This document shows positions 26,678 through 38,009 of a DNA stretch of 64,000 bases, piece after piece (position 1 is the stretch's first letter; every line of letters begins with the position of its first letter). The notes beneath the pieces are model-generated. The model was not told the origin of the DNA. It worked only from the letters and a program-made list of their open reading frames with translations, and did not search any database. The position numbers and the translations under genes are program-made. Source of the DNA: Coprinellus micaceus (lineage: Eukaryota > Basidiomycota > Agaricomycetes > Agaricales > Psathyrellaceae); the NCBI GenBank assembly GCA_951394405.1, contig OX596342.1, forward strand, positions 248,001-312,000. Reading direction: 5' to 3'.

Positions 26678-27793
26678 TCAAAGGAATGTTGGATCTTCTG
26701 GATCGGGCTCGACGGTTGGGAATGGGGGAGGAGTTGGGATATCGGTTCCCGGCGGTGGATTTGTGAAAGTCGGAGTAGGCCCAGGGTCAGGGAAGCAAAT
26801 TGGGGTACACGGCGAGCACTCGTTCCCACTGCCAGGGATGCATGGAACACATGGAGGGATAACGCACTTCGTAGTCGTGGTTGTCGGTCGTGGGAGACAC
26901 GTGCAGAAGCAGGGACTGCCTGGAGTCGCCCCTGCGCTGGTAGTCGACGTTCCGACAGATCCTGTAGGGCAGAGGGGGCACGGAAGGGGAAGACATGAGG
27001 ATGTGGTCGTCGTAGGCTTTGGTGGTGCGGGTGGTGTGGCCACAGGCGCTCCGGGAACACAAGTGCACGTTGGGCACTGAGTCCCCGTCCACGTGAGAGT
27101 CGGATGGGAAGCTGTCCCGCATGGGGTGCAAGGTGCAGGTAGGCATGCGCTGGTCGGGAGGTATGTAGGCCAGGAATCGGATGGGCTGCTTGGAGTGGGA
27201 GGTGGGGTCACAGTTGGTTTATGCCCAGGAACGCAGAAGCATTGAGGACAGTCCCCAACCGTCTTAGTTGTGGTGATAGTTATTTCTCCAAATGGGCATT
27301 TTGAGCAAGGGAGGTCCATTGGGCAGTCCGTGACGGTGGGCCAAGAGTCGGATGGCCCACTCGGACTAGGGAGGGTAGGCGTCACAGTTGGGTCGTGCGT
27401 GGGGACGCAGACGCATTGGGGGCACTGGCCCACGGTCTTGGTCGTGGTGGTAGCTGTTTCGCCAGCTGAGCACGACGAGCAGGGGAGGTCTGCCGAACAA
27501 GTAGGCCAGGAGTCGGAAGGCCCGCTTGGACTGGGGATGGTCGGCGTCACGGTTGGGGTATACGCGAGGACGCAGAAACACTGAGGGCACTGTCCCACAG
27601 TCCTGGTCGTGATAGTGTTGGTTTCCCCAGGTGGGCACGTTGAGCAAGGGAGCTCCGTCGGACACCGATATGGCGGATATGTGGTCGAAGTAGGCTTGGG
27701 AGTCGTAGACGCGATGGCTGCAGCAGCGTGTGAGACGAGAATGAAGGTGGCCAACCCCCTGAGTAGGGTGAGAGAAGGGCCCTTGCTGATCAT
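26678..27793 (-). CDS. secreted six-cysteine-module repeat protein (6 modules)
   Basis: The ATG at 27791-27793 begins MISKGPSLTLLRGLATFIL, a clear secretion signal, followed by a Pro/Thr-rich stretch. Six modules follow, the first three nearly identical in layout: C-x5-C-x2-C-x15-C-x2-C-x-C, as in CPTELPCSTC then GQCPQCFC. Modules four to six are more diverged (CLPAPCTPC then CPTCTC; CLPLPCPLC then CFCTC; CVIPPCVPC then CSPCTPIC). Linkers are Pro/Thr/Ser-rich, with the recurring phrase PSGPSDSWPT, and likely O-glycosylated. The 371-codon frame has no intron. I do not recognise the module as a named domain; six cysteines per unit suggest three disulfides or metal binding. There is no cellulose-binding module. 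The same module occurs in the genes at 29719, 33229 and 36081. A TATA-like TATTTATA lies upstream near 27918-27925. Confidence 0.88.
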   Translation of the reverse strand: MISKGPSLTLLRGLATFILVSHAAAAIASTTPKPTSTTYPPYRCPTELPCSTCPPGETNTITTRTVGQCPQCFCVLAYTPTVTPTIPSPSGPSDSWPTCSADLPCSSCSAGETATTTTKTVGQCPQCVCVPTHDPTVTPTLPSPSGPSDSWPTVTDCPMDLPCSKCPFGEITITTTKTVGDCPQCFCVPGHKPTVTPPPTPSSPSDSWPTYLPTSACLPAPCTPCGTASHPTLTWTGTQCPTCTCVPGAPVATPPAPPKPTTTTSSCLPLPCPLCPTGSVGTSTTSAGATPGSPCFCTCLPRPTTTTTKCVIPPCVPCIPGSGNECSPCTPICFPDPGPTPTFTNPPPGTDIPTPPPFPTVEPDPEDPTFL

Positions 27794-29718
27794 CGCGTTG
27801 ATTGAGGAGCTTGCACGGGGAACTGAGGATCTGATAATGAAGTCGATTTTCAATTTTATAGGATTCCTACTGACATCTATGAGAACGTACCCTGCGTCCA
27901 AGTGACCGATGGCATCGTATAAATAGGATCCATGAGAGCACCTTCTTCAGAATCCACGGGAGAGGTATGCCCAATTGACAAGGATCGCGTCTCATCATCG
28001 AGGTATAGCCGACCTGGGGGCGAGGACATCGATCAGCATGGGAACCCACTTCCGCTCTGGTCCAGTACGTGTCCATACAGGCTCTCTAGAACCCGATAGA
28101 TTTTGTGCGGGTCAGGCCCTCTCGAGGAGGACGTCGGCTCTGATACGACGAGGGCAAGAGGCGATACTTATTTGAAGCCGCATTCACATCGAGGCGGTTC
28201 AGTCTTGGGCCACAAGATCGGCGCCTATCCCCCCCTGACGAGGAAACCTCCTGGATCCTCGGCGGCCAGATGAACCCTGCTTTCAGACAATCTTGCGCCC
28301 ACATACGAGAGGTGTATGGACTGGGTACTCATCGACCTCATGATATCAATCTCGATTTCGCGTAAGTGACCCACCGAACTTGAGGGGTTAACAGGTTTGC
28401 AAACGTTACCTACAGCTTCATATCATGAAACACGAATGGCATTCCCAGGACGGCGAGGTACGGCCGACGAGCAGAAAGGAAAATAAATCATCGTAACTTG
28501 AAGTGCCGCCGCAAGAACCAGATGAACATCGTAAAAGGGTGCTGTCCCTGCAGTCCGTACTGGACAGAGCCAGTTCCACCCAGCCGGGTCCAATGAATTT
28601 TGCCGAGAACAATGTGCACCCCACATGAACGTGTCAAGTCGAAGCCGCAAGGTTGTTCGATCCGTTCTTGACCTCAATTGCCAATAGAGAATGAGCAACC
28701 GCTGTCGCATCCCAGGAGGCCTCATATCAGGTACACGCCTCGTTCATGGCCATCATATCGCGGACGTCGGCTGGGTAGAAGCGGTTACAGTGGAAGGCGA
28801 AAGCGACCGTATACATTGGGCGCATACCATGAATTCGTTATGAGACAGACTTTTGAAAGGGGCGTGTAACCGTTCATGAAGGGTCTTTCTATGGTCGCCA
28901 GCAAGAAGCAGAGCTACAACGAGTCCGACATGTTGGCTTTGGGAGTCATGCATCGCCCTCTGAACGGATAGCCTACAGAGTAACCGAAGTAGTCAAGCAC
29001 ATGTCATGTAAGTAGCGCCAGAAGATAGACTTGGAGCAGCTTTCAGGGAATGGAAGGTGAGGGTAGCCGCCAGTCATTTAGAATTCGCGGCATTGACAGT
29101 TTTTGGATGTGCACCCAGACCATGAGAGGTTTAGCCTGTCTGGGATGCTGGATCCCTGTTTAATCACCCACCAAAGGGGACCACTGAGAAGGAGAATAGA
29201 GGCCAAAAAATGAAGTTCGCTGTGACGATGGTGGGGGAAGGGAAAGCGGCGGGACGTCGGCAATTCCAGTGGGGAACCATTTTTTTACTCGGAGCTTGCT
29301 GGGCGGAGATTGCCGATCGTTGAACTCCAGCCTGAGAACCTCTGGTCCACTATCCAACATGAACTCAACCGCCTCTCGGTGTAACCGCGAAGTTCTCTTT
29401 ATCCGGGGATCGCCCAGCTGCCTCATGAGGAATTACACTCTCAATGGTCTTTCGTCAGCTCGACTTTGCTGGTTGGCAGACACTGCTCTGCTACTGTGGA
29501 GAACTCTTTGTCCTCGCTGCGGATACGACGCATATCGACTACTTACACACCATAATGTGTGCACAATACCCTCACCCCTTAGCGCCCTTATCTCGAAGGA
29601 ACTCAAGGGTCCTTCGATGATCAGTTCGTACCCCATGATCCCGACGACATCGCAATTGAATTTCGGGGGTATATAGTGTAGTTCTCCCCTCTGAGGTACC
29701 CGAAGCTCTTCGGAGAGA
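27794..29718. other. intergenic region between divergent cysteine-module genes
   Basis: The genes at 26678 and 29719 point away from each other, so both promoters lie here. The middle (about 28,100-29,600) carries only short frames without recognisable domains. I could not identify a gene or a transposon in it. Confidence 0.45.
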
Positions 29719-30596
29719 ATGGGTTCCCTAAGCCAAGCCTACCTGGCCCTCCTATCAGTCTTGGTTGTGTCCCGCAGGCTCAGCTCTGTCCACGCCAATG
29801 GTCTCCCTCCCGCTACTCACTCAATCGCGGCCTCCCTGCCCGCCCCCGTTTCAGCACCGACACCACCCCCGGACGCTCGAGCTATCATCGGAGACGGATA
29901 CGTTCGTCCTGGCTGTACCACCTATACCTGCGGCCCATGCACGGGCGCTTTTGATGTCGGCCTCGCTGCGACTGGATCGACGGATTGTCACTTTTGCGCG
30001 TGCTTCCCGAGGACCACCGTCCCCTCAAGCTGTTCGCTCACTTATTGTGGGGCGTGTGGGTGGAGCTCGACAGTAACTCTTACGACCCCAATGACGGGCC
30101 CGTACGACTGTCCGAAATGCGGATGTGTGGCTCCGGTAGCGACCGGTGTTCCCACTGCTGTTTCACTCTACGGGCAGTGTCAGTGATTTTGAATTCGATG
30201 AACGAAACGAAGCTGCGATCTGACCGCTATACATAGGTGGGGGGATTGGTTGGTCTGGCTTGACTAAGTGTCAGCGGTGAGTTACCGACCCTGGACCTCG
30301 ATCGCTACTCATTTATTGCTTCGACCAACACAGCCCTACCGCAACACCGTCGATCTCGGCAACCTGCTCGACCATGGATCCTTGTAGGTACCTGAGCTTG
30401 GACGGCGAACGACGTTTCTGAAGTGCTTCAAATTCAAACAGACTTCGCACAGTGCCTCCCGACACCCGCGTCGTCGGTTGTTAGTACAGTCACATCACCT
30501 GAATGCGTAGGCTGGACGTGTTCCGGCAACGGGGATTGCTCATGCTATACCTGGTCTCCTCCGAAGACCAGCACGATCACTTCATATTTCCGATGA
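29719..30596 (+). CDS. secreted protein: two six-cysteine modules, CBM1, cysteine tail
   Basis: The protein starts at the ATG at 29719 with a signal-like segment (LALLSVLVVSRRLSSVHA) and a Pro-rich stretch. Two modules follow: CTTYTCGPC then CHFCAC, and CSLTYCGAC then CPKCGC. The remainder is pieced from short exons (introns 30179-30236, 30277-about 30333, and 30384-30441 using GTAGGT). They spell a complete CBM1: YGQCGGIGWSGLTKC, a second cysteine block, and DPYFAQC. CBM1 binds crystalline cellulose through a flat aromatic face. After it comes an extra tail, PECVGWTCSGNGDCSCYTW, with four cysteines; TGA is at 30594-30596. The neighbouring AA9 gene and the sister gene at 33229 support an extracellular, cellulose-targeted role. 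The enzyme or ligand activity of the modules is unknown. Confidence 0.8.
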
Positions 30597-30898
30597 AGCA
30601 CGCTGAGATCGCCTATCGCTTCGTTCTTGCCTGGATGGAAGGAGACGTTCCAAGTTACACTTTCAGGATACCTTCTTTTCGTACCTATCACCCACTACGA
30701 TGTATTTCCACCATCGCTTTCGCAAGTTTTATGACGAAACCTCTGGGCTTGACTGAGCCTCGAGCCGTATGCAGTTGAGTATGAGGGAGTAATTTGAAGT
30801 ATCGAATATGAACGATAGAAAGAATGTACACGATAAGTGAGTGAACGTATATTCGTGTGGGCAACGAGGGCTGCTACCGAGAACTGTGGAGCAACCGC

Positions 30899-32047
30899 TC
30901 AGGGTGTGCATTGGCCTATATATATCTGCGTCAGTAGGGTATTTGATAAAATACGAGGGGTACTCACTGTACCAGTCGTTGATGGCCTTGCAGGTACCCT
31001 CGATGCAGGAAGTGGGACCAGTCCAGCCGCTTCCACCGCACTGGCCGTAGAGAGCAGCGCCGTTTGCGGGGACACTCGGTTGAGTAGGAGCCTGAGTCTG
31101 AGTAGGAGCGGCGGTGGTGGTCTGAGGAGGGGGGTTACCGCCAGCTGGGCACTGGAGAGGCGCAGGTCCGGGAACCTTGTAGGGGCGGCCCTGGTTGTTG
31201 GGGACGGTGCCTTGGTAGATGTTGATGACGATAGAGGGATCGTTCTGAGCGTAAGCGCCGGGGAAGGAGACGAGGTCGTTGCCGGTGGAAGATCCAGATC
31301 CCTGAACGTTGATTTGGGCGCATCCCACCTAAACACGGTTGGATGGCTCAGTAAGGTCGCGCGTCAAACGAAAGAAACGTACTCACGTAGAACTGGGCAC
31401 CACCTTGGGAGTACGCGGAGTGAAGGGCGAGCAACTCAATCCTCATCAAGTACTGGCCAGGAGCAACGCAAGATGGCATCTCGAAGTACTGCCAACCGCC
31501 GCTCTGTATCATCCTGTCGACACCCCACTGACTGTTGCTGTTCGTCAAGCCATCCTCAGCCACCTTGAACCAACGAAGCCCGCTGGGAGAAGCACTGGTG
31601 GCGTTGTCGACCTTGGCGAGGTAGGCGGCGACGGGACCTTTGTGGGAGGAGGCGATCGGGTGGTCGGGGTCGTTGGCCATCTGTGGTCCGCCAATGACAT
31701 GGCCCCACCATGCACCGACACGACCACCAGCGGGGATGTTGATAATGTTTGAATCCTTGTACTGCAAGTTGTTGTTGCAGGCCATACCACCGTCGTTGAC
31801 ATTTTGGACAGGCTACGGAGCGCGTCGGCGAGATATGGGGCAAGTAAAAGGCTGATAGCGTACGTTGTTGGAGCTAGGAGCACGGACACCCTTCAGCTGG
31901 CCTTGGTCAACACCGTTCACCGAGACTTTCTGTTGTGCAGATGAGCCAATGGCCAGGAATTATAGAAGGGCCGCTCACCTGGAAAATACAGTGTCCATAG
32001 GCGACAGAGCCGAAGGCAAGGGCGGCAAGTACCGACGAGAATTTCAT
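30899..32047 (-). CDS. AA9 lytic polysaccharide monooxygenase with C-terminal CBM1
   Basis: The start is the ATG at 32045-32047. [18 protein letters not shown] is the signal peptide, leaving His19 as the mature N-terminal residue (HCIFQ), the first ligand of the copper 'histidine brace'. The second ligand is the His in [14 protein letters not shown] (about residue 102), and the axial Tyr lies in GGAQFYVGCAQI. Cysteines in GGMACNNN and PSCVAPGQY fit the family. After the catalytic domain come a Pro/Thr/Gln-rich linker and a CBM1 ([15 protein letters not shown] ... AINDWYSQC). Four introns are placed, the last splitting the CBM1 codon for Ser; the stop is at 30899-30901. The length is about 314 residues, normal for AA9-CBM1. 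AA9 enzymes oxidatively cleave cellulose outside the cell. A TATA box is about 96 bp upstream. It lies among the cysteine-module genes and is divergent from the one at 33229. Confidence 0.94.
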
Positions 32048-33228
32048 GTCTTCACAAGAATCACAAAGATAGAACCAGAGTCTCGGTAGAGGGATAGCAC
32101 TCTCGACAAGGCTAGGACTCTCACGTCGACAGTCCAGGACGCTTTATACCCCCTTTCACAGCTCCCGCGCTCGTAGCTTGTCCTCGAAATGTAGCGCTCA
32201 GGTTTTGGATTGGGGAAGTCGAAGTCGTATGTCATTACCCCGCATGACGAAAGGAGAATCGAAGGCCGGGGGACGGGTGAACTACTGAGATTTCGCGGAA
32301 GAGCTCTCGGAACCGGAGAACGGACGAATGGGGTGCACCGACAGCCATTTCCAGAACCGAGCAGAGTGCTAAGCTGTTCTTGAAACATCCGAGGTGGTTC
32401 GACAGTATCGAATAGTAGAAATGCCCCCCCATTGAAGGTGAGTGGGGTGCAATAGGTGGCCAAGCTTCGGGAGAAGACCCTAATAGCTTAGGGGAGGAGA
32501 CGAAATGCATGTGGATCGAAGGACGTCGATTTGGCTGGTCGTTGCTGTCGGCGACTTTTGTGACAACGGGACATTGAGTTTGAATGTTCTCAAATGTCCA
32601 GTAAATATCCGTGGTCAGTCCTGTGTTTCAACGATTGCACCCAGTCAAAGTCCCAGATGCTGAGCTACGTTTCCTTGAGTCCCTAGGCCCGTCGAATTAA
32701 ATGCTAGTGGAGATGCACCGAGCGCACTGGGTGTGAATGTGGTTGAGGCTGTCACAACGGTGCGAAAGGGAGGAGCGGACGATAGTGAAATCTCGGTTGA
32801 AGGGTTTTTGCCACGCCTTCATGTTTGGCAAAACCGTTGTGAACCAACAGCCGGCACATGCGGCACAGGTCGGGGCAAACGCCTCACAAGCAGACCAAGC
32901 CTTAAACTGCGTCGCTTCTCCCAACGATCTTCCGATCTCTGACCTACCGCCCTGACCCCGCCCACTTTGGGTTCGGTACCTCATAGAATGGCGAGTTCTA
33001 ATCGCAGTTGGGAAGGCTAGAAGTCACGCGGGGTATAACATTTTCTCTTGCCGCTGACATACATCCTTGCTAGGCCCAAGTTCGCACTCAGCCCTTCCTT
33101 GCCAGTGCAAGAATGAGAATTCCATCTTCTCGTCTCACGCGCACACTAGAAGTTCGTTCAAATTGATTATAGGCCTCCACCCGTCTATATATGCGGTGTT
33201 GTTGGTTTTCAGACCACCCAACGCAGCG
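32048..33228. promoter_or_regulatory. divergent promoter region of the AA9 gene and a CBM1 cysteine-module gene
   Basis: This 1.18 kb separates two oppositely directed genes that both encode CBM1 proteins, so they may share induction signals. A minus-strand TATAAA is at 32143-32148 for the AA9 gene, and a TCTATATATGC element near 33184 for the other. I see no gene inside. Confidence 0.5.
32143..32148 (-). promoter_or_regulatory. TATA box of the AA9 gene
   Basis: GGTATAAAG on the minus strand, about 96 bp before the ATG. Confidence 0.55.
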
Positions 33229-33983
33229 ATGGCGACCGCAAGAACCACCCGACTCCAAGCCCTACTCCTTCTAACCTTGTCGGGTGCTCTCAGCATTGAG
33301 GCTTTTATACCCTCCCCTACAGCTCCATCCGAGCTTGCGGCTCCAAATGTTGCTCCGACTCCACCACCGGACATCTCTGCCTTGGCCAATGACGGCTATC
33401 CCCGCCCTGGCTGCCCAGTCTTTTCTTGCTACCAGTGTATCGGTGACTTCTACCTGACCCTTACCGCCACGGGCTCAACGGATTGCCATTTCTGCGCCTG
33501 TGCTCCCCGCACTCCGAGCGCCTACCCTGCCGAGTGCTCGGTGTCGTTCTGCAACCATTGCGGGTTGAGCTCATTAGTCGTCCTCACCACACCTAGTGCG
33601 CAGACGTGCCCTGCGTGCGGATGTGCGGCGATTCCGGGACTTCCTGCAACGACGCCTAGCGTGGCATCGATATGGGGACAATGTGGGTCGGGTTTTCCAA
33701 GCTAACTTCTGTATACTGACGGGCATTAGGTGGTGGAATCGGGTATACTGGCCCAACCAAATGCAGGTGAGCGTTTTATATGTGATGGGTCGCGTATAGA
33801 ACTAAATTGACGATTGCATCAGCCCTTCTGGAGCCACTTCTGTTGAATGCTCTTCCATTAATTCATGTGAGCTTTCACATTCTCTATTAAAGACTCTCGG
33901 GCTGATCGAACCCTTTCCAATTAGACTACGCTCAGTGTATGCCCGTGCATACTCCGACAGCAGTTCCTTTGCCTCGATCGTAG
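33229..33983 (+). CDS. secreted protein: two six-cysteine modules plus CBM1
   Basis: The ATG at 33229 gives a signal peptide (TTRLQALLLLTLSGALSIEA), then a Pro-rich stretch, then DGYPRPG as in the gene at 29719. Two modules follow: CPVFSCYQC then STDCHFCAC, and CSVSFCNHC then CPACGC. Three introns (33683-33729, 33767-33832, 33867-33924) assemble a canonical CBM1, WGQCGGGIGYTGPTKC ... CSSINSYYAQC. It is followed by a short 15-residue tail; TAG is at 33981-33983. The intron positions inside the CBM1 match those of the gene at 29719, so the two are paralogues. The mature protein is about 150-170 residues. It is probably secreted and anchored to cellulose by the CBM1; what the cysteine modules do is unknown. 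Confidence 0.85.
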
Positions 33984-36080
33984 TTTTGATACAACACAGC
34001 CTTTGCTCCTCTCGCGAGCGTCTTTCCACATTCGCACATACGATCGTCGCTATCACTCAGACTGTCAGTATACTCCCAGATCCCGACCATGGTCAAGCCT
34101 TGCTGCTGATCAGCATCCTGCCGCGAACGGCGGCGACGTTCAGGGTCATACAGCGGTGATTTGGTATAAGGGCTACAGATCCACTCAAGCCACATCCTCT
34201 GCACCATGTGTCGTAAATGTCAGATAAAAATCGCCCACGAAAGGCACACAGGTGTGGGGAGGACACCCAGAGCCAGACGAGGGGACGAAGAGTTGTGGTA
34301 TAGGCATTGGTGTGATGTTACATGTCATGACGCTGAACCCGGATGAAGTTGTCGGCTCTGTAGAGGAGGCTAGGACTACTGGAGCTTGGATGACTAGGGG
34401 CCCAGCTGGTAAGGTGATTAGGACATCACACCGGTCGTATCCCGCATCCCTACATTCAGTTCTGTCCTGCTCTAAGCGTCACCAATGCTAGTTCAAGGCA
34501 CTCTTACCCGCAACTAGTGACCGGCTGTATGTATCTTTCTACAGGTCCGTCCTGCCTGCGCGTGCGAATCATTTCCTGCAACAACCGCTCTTACCGGGGC
34601 TGCATCGTATTCGTAATGTGAGTCCAGCCTTGTGGGGACCTGTAGATGATCTCAAATAAATTAATTATGTAGGCGGAGGTCAGGAGTTCACTGGACCTAC
34701 AGTCTGCCATAGGTAGCCTCTGAGACTTAAAGTGCCAGCCACCAGCGGCTAACTGTCCTTCGCTTCCTAGTCCGTGGGGGACGAACTCGATCCCCGTGTA
34801 TGGCAAGACCTACATGAATGTGCGTGGTGCTCTGCGCGGGACTTTCTTAACCGTTCTCTGAAGCCACAGGTTTCTCATCTACTGCAGGGTACGCCGAATG
34901 CTTCCCGAGCACTACGACGTCTACAGTCCCTCCGGGAGTTACGAACGCCTTGGACTACGAGGGATGGTGAAGGGAATGAACATTTAGGTGAAATTATTGA
35001 CTTATAAAATGCGGAGAGTAAAGCCCTGTCTGTACGGCGGTGTGCTTTGCGAGTGGTGTTTTGGCGTTTGTCTCGTCAGGCCATTCCCATATGTATTCCG
35101 TACATGAGGGTGCTGGTCGTCAGGTCGGCGTTGATGCGTCCTCTCTGTGCATATATGAGTACCCACCAGTTGTCTCGTACCATTTTTATGCGTTAAAGGT
35201 ATATTCATGAGCGTTATGTTGTGTAAGATGCCCGACCGATCGCTGCGGGGAATAGGCGCCCGTTCGCTCAGGGGCCTTTGGCATCTGCCGAAGTGAAAGG
35301 GTTTGAACTCCGACTGCCGCCCCGCGTGATGCCGTGTTGGTCCACCAACGTTGCTTGACCAGTTTCCACCACCACAGCAGAGCCCCAATCTGCTTGTTCA
35401 CCACCCTACCGGCTGCATCAAACATTATTCTTTACTCGAACTGCGAGATGTCCCCCGTGCAAACTTCCTCTGAAATTAGTCGAGACGCGAACCTGGAGAG
35501 GCCCGTGCTGGAGTAAGCGACCACTGAGTTGACGATCACCACGCCCTCCGGATCCCTTGTCAGCACCCTCTCGACCTAGGTCCTAGTATTCCGGAGCCAA
35601 GTACCTGGATCATATGTCCCCTCAAAGTCTATCGCTATCGGGGAACCGGGGTCTGCGTCTGTTTCTGCGTCTAGCAGGTTTCGCGGGGAGTTTCGTGTGA
35701 CGCGTTAGGCTTCGGAAGCCAAAGGTACCCTTTCCCCAGAAATGGAATCAAGGTCTCTTTTTTTACATTCGAATCGCTGCTCATATTCTCAGTCTTTATG
35801 GTGCCGAACGGTCTGTGCCGCCCGCGCTGGGTACGTCGAAGCAGTTCCTTGCAGCTCCTTTCGCATGCTAACGGATATACCTCGTCGATTGGGCGTGATT
35901 AGCGTCACTTGCCGGCGTTTCTCGGTGAAGATCGACAAAATGATTCTCATGGGCCCTGGACCATCGATTTTGGTGGTCAGCTGAGCTTCAGGTGCGTTCT
36001 CATAGATCTAATCGTCGGGCTATAAGAATTCAAATTCATCTTCATTATGGACTTCGTCAGTTCTTCACTCGTCGAGGACG
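33984..36080. other. intergenic region before the large repeat gene
   Basis: Only short frames without domain signal were seen on both strands. A TATAAG motif at about 36021 lies 60 bp before the next start and is its likely promoter element. No transposon ends were recognised. Confidence 0.45.
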
Positions 36081-38009
36081 ATGCAGGGCAAGTCCAACAT
36101 GCTCCCGGTGCTGGGTGGCCTCGCTCTCATCCTCTCCTCTTCCTGGTTTGCCCTGGGTAGACCCACGCCCGAGGATCTCATCCTTAGCGACCCGCACTTT
36201 ACCTCACTTCCCAATGCAATCGTTCTGAACTCCACCTTCGATCTGAACCAAGGCGGCTCGACTACGTCCACTACGACCTCGACCCCACCTATGGCTTGCC
36301 CTATGGGAGGTCCCTGTCCTTCTTGCGGACCTGGATCGACCATCTTCTTCACCAAGACTGGGAACTCCTGCCCATGGTGCACTTGCGGACTCATTCCGTC
36401 GACCACACACATCCCTACGAGCACCACCACCACAAATCCGCCTTCCGGATGCCCTACTCATCTCCCCTGCTCAACATGCCCGCCCGGAGAGACCCCTGCG
36501 ACCACGACCAAGACAGCGGGGCAGTGCCCTCAGTGTTTCTGCGTCCCCGCACCTACCCCGACCAATACATGCTTCCCCCAGCCATGTGCTCCTTGCCCGA
36601 CGGGCTCTTACAATAGCATGACTTCGACTGGGACGAAATGTCCTTGGTGTACCTGCGTGCCTTATCCCTCTTCAAGCCCAACACCTACTCCGACTCCCCC
36701 CACCCCGAGTTCGCCGGCACATACGCCCACTACGGCATGCATCCCTACCCCCTGCGCTCCTTGCCCGCCGAGCTCCCACTTCATCTATACTAGCACGGGG
36801 AAAGAGTGTCCGTGGTGCACTTGTATACCTAACCCGTCGACGGTTCCGACACCGACACCGACTCCCACAATAACGACGACGAAGTGCATTTACCCCCCTT
36901 GCCCGACGTGCCCTCCAGGGCAGCCGTGCCCACCATACGTATGTGAGCCTATCTGCTTCCCCGATCCTCCTCCAACTCCATTCCCAACCCCGACGACATT
37001 TACCATCACCCAACCGCCTCTCCCTCAACCTACTTCACCCTCCCCGCCCCCCGTTGACCCTACGACAGTGACGCCTCCTACAAACTGCCCTACTTTCTCG
37101 TGCCCAGGCTGCGGTCCCAGTTCTTATATCACTCAGACTCGTCCAGCCCCAACAGCATGCCCCCAGTGCGCGTGCGTCGCTTACCCAACCCCGACACCGT
37201 CGACACCTACGAACTGTCCTACTTTCTCGTGCCCAGGCTCCGGTCCCAACTCGTACATTACTCAGACCCGCCCAGCCCCAACTGCGTGTCCGCAGTGCGC
37301 TTGCCTCCCTTATTCAACCCCGACAGCGTCGACGCCTACAAATTGCCCTACTTACTCGTGCCCTGGGTGCGGTCCTAATTCATATATAACCCAGACTCGC
37401 CCAGCCCCGACATCATGCCCGCAGTGCGCCTGCGTCGCGTACCCAACACCGAAGGAGACGGCGCCAACGGCCTGCCCGACCTTCTCGTGCCCTGGTTGCG
37501 GCCCGAATTCCTATATCACTCAAACCCGACCGGCCACAACTGCGTGCGCGCAATGCGCTTGTGTTGCCTACCCAACCCCGACGACGTCAACGCCTATAAA
37601 CTGCCCTACATTCTCTTGCCCAGGATGCGGACCTAATTCCTACATCACCCAGACCCGCCCAGCCCCGACGGCATGCCCCCAGTGCGCATGTGTCGCCTAC
37701 CCAACGCCCACGGCCTCAACGCCAACAGCATGCCCCACGTTCTCGTGCCCTGGATGTGGTCCCAATTCCTACATTACCCAGACCCGCCCAGCCCCAACTG
37801 CGTGTCCGCAATGCGCATGCGCCCCTTACCCAACACCTCCAACGACTCCCTCAGTGACTCCACCCGTCACCATCGACCCCACTGACTTCCCCTGTCCCAC
37901 TCTTTCGTGCCCTGGGTGTGGGCCTAATTCCTACATCACTCAGACGAAAACAGTTTGGACCGAGTGCCCGCACTGCACCTGCGTGGGGTATGCTACCCCT
38001 ACCCCTTGA
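36081..38009 (+). CDS. large secreted six-cysteine-module protein (12 modules)
   Basis: A single exon of 642 codons starts at the ATG at 36081, with a hydrophobic signal (MLPVLGGLALILSSSWFALG). Five varied modules come first: CPMGGPCPSC then CPWCTC; CPTHLPCSTC then CPQCFC; CFPQPCAPC then CPWCTC; CIPTPCAPC then CPWCTC; CIYPPCPTC. Seven near-identical modules follow from residue about 335, of the form CPTFSCPGCGPNSYITQTRP then CPQCAC. The linkers are Pro/Thr-rich and probably O-glycosylated. Module 7 has CPGSG in place of CPGCG, so it lacks one cysteine of the pattern. No CBM1 or anchor signal is seen at the C-terminus. It belongs to the same family as the genes at 26678, 29719 and 33229. The role is unknown; candidates are cell wall, matrix or adhesion protein. 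The frame is clearly coding because cysteine spacing is kept through the repeats. Confidence 0.9.
   Translation: MQGKSNMLPVLGGLALILSSSWFALGRPTPEDLILSDPHFTSLPNAIVLNSTFDLNQGGSTTSTTTSTPPMACPMGGPCPSCGPGSTIFFTKTGNSCPWCTCGLIPSTTHIPTSTTTTNPPSGCPTHLPCSTCPPGETPATTTKTAGQCPQCFCVPAPTPTNTCFPQPCAPCPTGSYNSMTSTGTKCPWCTCVPYPSSSPTPTPTPPTPSSPAHTPTTACIPTPCAPCPPSSHFIYTSTGKECPWCTCIPNPSTVPTPTPTPTITTTKCIYPPCPTCPPGQPCPPYVCEPICFPDPPPTPFPTPTTFTITQPPLPQPTSPSPPPVDPTTVTPPTNCPTFSCPGCGPSSYITQTRPAPTACPQCACVAYPTPTPSTPTNCPTFSCPGSGPNSYITQTRPAPTACPQCACLPYSTPTASTPTNCPTYSCPGCGPNSYITQTRPAPTSCPQCACVAYPTPKETAPTACPTFSCPGCGPNSYITQTRPATTACAQCACVAYPTPTTSTPINCPTFSCPGCGPNSYITQTRPAPTACPQCACVAYPTPTASTPTACPTFSCPGCGPNSYITQTRPAPTACPQCACAPYPTPPTTPSVTPPVTIDPTDFPCPTLSCPGCGPNSYITQTKTVWTECPHCTCVGYATPTP
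37083..37990 (+). repeat. 129-bp tandem coding repeat (43 codons per unit)
   Basis: Unit starts lie at 37083, 37212, 37341, 37470, 37599 and 37728, exactly 129 bp apart. A seventh, diverged unit follows after a longer linker near 37887. Units differ mainly at synonymous sites and in the linker, so the cysteines are under constraint, apart from the changed one in unit 2. Confidence 0.95.

Follow-up and report, generated by a model that had tools for sequence, protein, structure and literature searches.

The module described here recalls several known systems. The antistasin-like domain has a six-cysteine core that ends C-x2-C-x-C. Opy2 is a fungal single-pass membrane protein with an extracellular, cysteine-rich N-terminal domain (35 positions in the Pfam model PF09463); an excerpt of PMC13233613 describes this domain as binding Hkr1/Msb2, and the title of a paper cited there gives Opy2 an eight-cysteine motif. 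Fungi also have small secreted cysteine-rich proteins and proteins tethered through a CBM1. We report on a cluster in a 64,000-nucleotide stretch of Coprinellus micaceus DNA (G000:C9:248001-312000, hereafter the window, in a genome of 50.3 Mb in 17 contigs), in which four intact genes (g1, g2, g4, and g5) for proteins built from a recurring six-cysteine module flank a gene for an AA9-CBM1 enzyme, all within 11.4 kb:

27793-26678, minus strand: g1, intronless, 371 amino acids, six modules (four canonical and two divergent), without a CBM1.
29719-30596, plus strand: g2, 234 amino acids, two modules, a CBM1, and a short cysteine tail; four exons (29719-30178, 30237-30276, 30334-30383, 30442-30596).
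32047-30899, minus strand: AA9-CBM1 lytic polysaccharide monooxygenase, 312 amino acids, with a His after the signal peptide; five exons (32047-31979, 31929-31864, 31812-31387, 31328-30968, 30915-30899).
33229-33983, plus strand: g4, 197 amino acids, two modules and a CBM1; four exons (33229-33682, 33730-33766, 33823-33866, 33925-33983).
36081-38009, plus strand: g5, intronless, 642 amino acids, 12 modules (ten canonical, one lacking Cys3, and one divergent), without a CBM1.
37077-37834, plus strand: the 129-bp tandem array within g5 that encodes copies 5-10.

Like the antistasin-like domain, the module has a six-cysteine core with the ending given above, but it is 29-32 residues long, as against 26 positions in the antistasin model PF02822, and its loop between the third and fourth cysteines (the C3-C4 loop) is longer than that of antistasin. 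It shares with the Opy2 domain a fungal, extracellular, and cysteine-rich character and a weak match of single modules, whereas it has six cysteines and occurs in secreted tandem arrays. With fungal small secreted cysteine-rich and CBM1-tethered proteins the cluster has secretion, cysteines, and, on two of its proteins, CBM1 in common; what sets it apart is the arrangement of its modules in tandem, as many as 12 in one protein, and the strong constraint on the copies.

The gene models were verified by splicing, and all ten introns of g2, g4, and the AA9 gene have GT...AG borders. The four module proteins begin with a hydrophobic stretch of the signal-peptide type, as judged by hydropathy alone and not by a dedicated predictor. 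Thus, splicing, hydropathy, and Pfam bear out a first-pass annotation, made from the sequence, that had placed four secreted-type module genes around an AA9-CBM1 gene. Its counts of 6, 2, 2, and 12 copies in g1, g2, g4, and g5 (22 in total) also stand; the spacing that it had given for every copy does not, since four of the 22 depart from it. Eighteen copies match C-x(4,5)-C-x2-C-x(14-17)-C-x2-C-x-C, one (g5 copy 6) has Ser in place of Cys3, and three diverge in spacing (4,2,19,1,1 in g1 copy 5; 4,2,7,2,3 in g1 copy 6; and, counted by eye on the sequence, 4,2,5,4,3 in the g5 copy at residue 269). The module is not a product of chance, because shuffled proteins almost never match the strict pattern: the observed matches numbered 4, 2, 2, and 10 in g1, g2, g4, and g5, respectively, and 2000 shuffles of each protein yielded a mean of 0.0 in g1, g2, and g4 (maximum 0) and of 0.0005 in g5 (maximum 1). 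We also aligned 29 modules, taken from 47 distinct canonical ones in the genome and its homologues after near duplicates had been dropped by hand. The six cysteines were the only invariant positions, an invariance that holds by construction given that the modules had been chosen by pattern, and little else was common to the modules.

Our new observation concerns the tail of g5, whose copies are near saturation at synonymous sites and yet almost identical in protein sequence. Pooled over the 15 pairs among copies 5-10, the proportion of synonymous differences (pS) was 0.66, the proportion of nonsynonymous differences (pN) was 0.030, and omega (the ratio of nonsynonymous to synonymous rates) was about 0.019, values to be read with the caution that near-saturation makes the synonymous distance (dS) rough and that the pairs are not independent. 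Copies 9 and 10 are the extreme case (pS 0.67, pN 0.000). The C3-C4 loop taken alone gave an omega of 0.023, and the linkers one of 0.293. The first-pass annotation had proposed that selection acts on the fold, and selection on the module is supported: in the g5 tail the whole module is constrained, beyond the spacing of its cysteines. We rejected gene conversion as the cause of the pattern, as it would have homogenised the synonymous sites too. Codon differences could have been selected to calm recombination between the repeats, which would raise dS.

Genome searches, which score the best candidates alone and so set a lower bound on the number of module genes, revealed at least two further members, both on contig C1:

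C1 at about 4.513 Mb (L026:2246-3070), minus strand: four-module paralogue with a hydrophobic C-terminal tail of the glycosylphosphatidylinositol (GPI) type.
C1 at about 3.597 Mb (L027:2321-2762), minus strand: two-module paralogue without a CBM1.

Weak module-like matches were also found on C4, C12, C6, C7, C8, and C11. No AA9 match lies near either C1 gene, the AA9 matches on that contig being at 0.135, 2.008, and 4.879 Mb.

Homologue searches with the proteins yielded 11 distinct proteins, five of them from C. micaceus, and no other named species appeared among the matches listed. A protein is found in these searches only if it has five-residue words in common with the query, and two of them scored no more than about 7990 candidates, such that wider relatives may be missed. 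The C. micaceus counterparts (orthologues or close homologues) are as follows:

FA13DRAFT_874048: homologue of g1; orthologue of g1, P0001.
FA13DRAFT_1712459: homologue of g5; orthologue of g5, P0002.
FA13DRAFT_874021: homologue of g2; orthologue of g2, P0004.
FA13DRAFT_1816272: homologue of g4; orthologue of g4, P0006.
FA13DRAFT_1771335: homologue of the GPI-type paralogue.

They differ from the proteins described here in copy number and gene models, and their sources name them hypothetical, uncharacterized, CBM1, or antistasin-like. The similarity is nevertheless high, with g1 and P0001 being 81% identical by BLASTP and 87.7% identical across 367 residues aligned with MAFFT. The cysteines were kept at 35 of 36 aligned places in g1, 49 of 54 in g5, and all 16 in both g2 and g4, and other residues were kept at 87%, 84%, 76%, and 84% of places, respectively. 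Because the four orthologues are all listed on a contig of one and the same size (368,790 bp), the cluster of module genes is probably conserved in C. micaceus.

A structure prediction for one module, as the first-pass annotation had suggested, was carried out with an alignment of 16 window modules. Of the 22, six did not enter it: copies 5 and 6 of g1 and, from g5, the copy at residue 269, the one that lacks Cys3, and two near-identical ones. The model had a mean predicted local distance difference test score (pLDDT) of 78 and showed two strands (16-21 and 29-34 in its 37 residues). A Foldseek search of the PDB with this model gave no significant match, a result that does not in itself establish a novel fold.

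What might such proteins do? We tentatively favour, at somewhat less than even strength, the view that they are multivalent, non-catalytic surface or matrix proteins, two of them tethered to cellulose. The module would be a small beta-hairpin unit held by disulphide bonds, set in tandem on Pro/Thr-rich stalks that, from their composition, are probably O-glycosylated (Pro and Thr account for 28.6% and 25.4% of the non-module parts of g5 and for 28.3% and 20.1% of those of g1). On this proposal g1 and g5 would be many-headed chains, g2 and g4 would be two-headed units held on cellulose via their CBM1s, and the four-module paralogue on C1 would, judging by its composition, be tethered to the cell wall through a GPI anchor. 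A binding face on every module could then hold hyphal wall, secreted matrix, and plant cell wall together in a putative adhesion or matrix role. We favour this role because of the Pro/Thr stretches, the near-identical tandem copies, the two CBM1s, and the GPI-type tail; the preservation of the g5 tail copies is what one would expect if the repeats served for binding or as building blocks, and scans with Pfam found no enzyme domain in g1, g2, g4, or g5. Several points weigh on the other side. The constraint on the identical copies would equally fit a repeated inhibitor or ligand, and it is strong in the g5 tail only: copies 1-3 of g1 gave an omega of 0.154, and the GPI-type paralogue a pN of 0.153 with a dS that was not measurable. 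The GPI-type paralogue, compared with P0010, keeps 12 of 22 cysteines as against 76% of other residues, perhaps owing to a faulty gene model, and one C. micaceus copy of the g1 module has Arg in place of a Cys, much as g5 copy 6 has lost Cys3. A model of two modules was poor (pLDDT 47). Finally, binding and localisation are themselves read from the sequence, and any partner of the module is putative.

The AA9 gene and the CBM1s bear on how the cluster is to be understood. The AA9 protein scored 191.8 bits against PF03443 (cut-off 27.8), and its CBM1 was also above the cut-off; for PF00734 (cut-off 20.6) g2 scored 25.7 bits over profile positions 1-20 of 29 and g4 32.5 bits over positions 2-29. 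Pfam cut-offs thus confirm that an AA9-CBM1 gene sits in the centre of the cluster and that two of the module proteins carry a CBM1, both of which had been claimed in the first-pass annotation. At the three aromatic positions that we take to matter in CBM1, g2 has W/Y/F and g4 Y/Y/Y. Downstream of its CBM1, g2 has an extra cysteine-rich tail (in exon 30442-30596), which g4 lacks. The N-terminal His of AA9 enzymes binds copper, and in our protein the His that follows the signal peptide aligns with residue 1 of solved chains, of which 9fdl is the nearest. Some AA9 proteins carry a His at a position where this one has Ile; since Val or Ala occupies that position in the five solved chains compared, the enzyme appears from its sequence to be an ordinary member of its family. 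The mature protein starts His-Cys (31988-31993), where the five solved relatives have His-Ala or His-Thr.

Among the module genes, the best matches of g1 copies 1-3 are with g5 copy 2 or with one another, g1 copy 4 matches g5 copies 3-4 best, and the two divergent modules, that at the end of g1 and its counterpart in g5, match each other best. From these pairings, g1 and g5 seem to be duplicates of long standing that share one order of modules. A second group of modules comprises g2, g4, and the two-module gene on C1. The g2 and g4 genes have three CBM1 introns in common in position and phase (1, 2, 1), whereas the AA9 gene has a single CBM1 intron two codons later, as judged by comparing positions by eye; therefore, the CBM1s of g2 and g4 were probably not copied recently from the adjoining AA9 gene. 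Between g4 and g5 lies a decayed gene of the g2/g4 type (34194-34931), whose 5' part is inverted relative to its 3' part and which is interrupted by a stop codon close to where its CBM1 part begins:

34194-34319, minus strand: what is left of the N-terminal part with the module (matched by g4 residues 40-85 in tblastn, E 5.4e-6).
34542-34931, plus strand: probably what is left, in pieces, of the same gene where module 2 ends and of its CBM1 (three weak matches in tblastn, E 0.18, 0.38, and 0.45).

A blastn search gave no DNA match of the decayed copy to g2 or g4.

Other readings start from the family to which the module might belong. The first-pass annotation had found no known family for it and had called for a search of Pfam, and that search gave no strong match: over the modules no Pfam family rose above its cut-off, the whole proteins yielding CBM1 and AA9 alone (a TANGO6_N match of g4 was at chance level and was ignored), and the whole proteins had no NCBIfam match at E up to 1. 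In UniRef, by contrast, the g1 orthologue P0001 is named, in an entry whose title is truncated, an antistasin-like domain protein, and the claim that the module is unassigned holds to that extent for Pfam and NCBIfam and not for UniRef. The name points to the main rival reading, which we judge unlikely, that the proteins are multi-headed protease inhibitors of the antistasin or a similar canonical-loop type, in which a P2-P1-P1' site in the C3-C4 loop would shield the fungal secretome. Tandem heads are indeed common in protease inhibitors, and in some of the loops Thr-(Lys/Arg)-(Thr/Ser/Pro) can be made out by eye at a single aligned position, where further copies have different residues. However, the six copies of the g5 tail carry Arg-Pro, a poor P1-P1' pair for proteases, the loops of g2 and g4 have no basic residue, and those of the g5 tail are not diversified. 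Moreover, the Pfam antistasin model (PF02822) matched none of the proteins and modules scanned, nor any module gene genome-wide, and was absent from the 25 families listed of the 28 matched by the 29 single modules. No antistasin chain was among 15 PDB profile matches at E up to 10, which were for the most part zinc-finger, ribosomal, and antibody chains and carry no weight; further PDB profile searches returned zero matches, and antistasin-type chains are, to our knowledge, present in that database. Among the literature matches listed, no title concerned a fungal antistasin domain or the present module. We followed up the antistasin name for the module and found it without Pfam or PDB support. 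Improbable, in our estimation, is a distant relationship to the extracellular cysteine-rich domain of Opy2, with the module binding mucin-like glycoproteins as the Opy2 domain does its partners. Nine of the 29 single modules matched PF09463 at E up to 10, as against none of 29 in one set of shuffles with the cysteines fixed. Yet the best of these matches (E 0.029, profile positions 4-35 of 35) reached 15.1 bits and the cut-off is 22.1, no module gene was among the matches listed for a genome search with PF09463, and the cysteines number six, not eight. Nor is the signal specific, because the real modules matched 28 families in all and the shuffles six, and because zinc ribbons gave better E-values for single modules. 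Behind the signal peptide, furthermore, no stretch is membrane-like (best 19-residue hydropathy past residue 40: 0.78 in g1, 1.22 in g2, 1.19 in g4, and 0.61 in g5). We considered and rejected as a comparator an Opy2 match at G000:C5:3490183, where the frame of 460 amino acids (L030:1887-3269, minus strand) looks like an EGF/furin-like cysteine-rich protein.

The zinc-ribbon matches (Zn_Ribbon_1 at E 0.0013 and Zn_ribbon_19 at E 0.0077, with no zinc-ribbon match in the shuffled set) could be taken, together with the CPxC and CxC motifs and the position of the module genes on either side of the AA9 gene, to mean that the proteins handle metal for the AA9 enzyme or act as its redox partner, their CxxC and CxC thiols holding copper or zinc or passing electrons to the monooxygenase. 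We think this very improbable. The matches are scattered over many families, with at most three of the 29 modules in each, and we attribute them, provisionally, to the CPxC motif, which is disrupted in the shuffled set; secreted proteins traverse an oxidising compartment and the canonical modules have an even number of cysteines; the library scans found no haem, flavin, or quinone domain; and the two C1 genes have no AA9 match nearby. Less probable still is a non-catalytic scaffold on cellulose, in which g5 and g1 would be chains of many sites and g2 and g4 cellulose-bound adaptors, with the modules binding each other or enzymes of the secretome, for example AA9. Finally, the AA9 gene could lie between the module genes by chance, the cluster being no more than a family of tandem genes in which copies arise and decay, an explanation that is compatible with any reading of the module and that we regard as evenly balanced. 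The genome has about 39 AA9 loci (from grouping 85 matches), and 0.78% of random 11.4-kb intervals overlap one, a small proportion obtained in a test made after the fact; the overlap makes a link of AA9 to the module genes suggestive, as does the presence of a CBM1 both on AA9 and on two of the four module proteins. Chance is in keeping with the decayed copy inside the cluster and with the different intron positions of the CBM1s. A joint function with the AA9 enzyme, proposed in the first-pass annotation, is conjectural: the module genes on C1 have no AA9 neighbour, the CBM1 introns differ, and the enzyme looks ordinary.

The module recurs, is secreted and strongly constrained, and has no Pfam model, which makes it an obvious candidate for defining a family and for studying its structure; the antistasin label on the g1 orthologue may mislead. 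If the scaffold arrangement were true, it would be an analogue, in an aerobic mushroom and from an independent fold, of the cellulosome scaffold. Should the module prove to bind a component of the wall or an enzyme, the proteins would offer natural multivalent tethers for cellulose.

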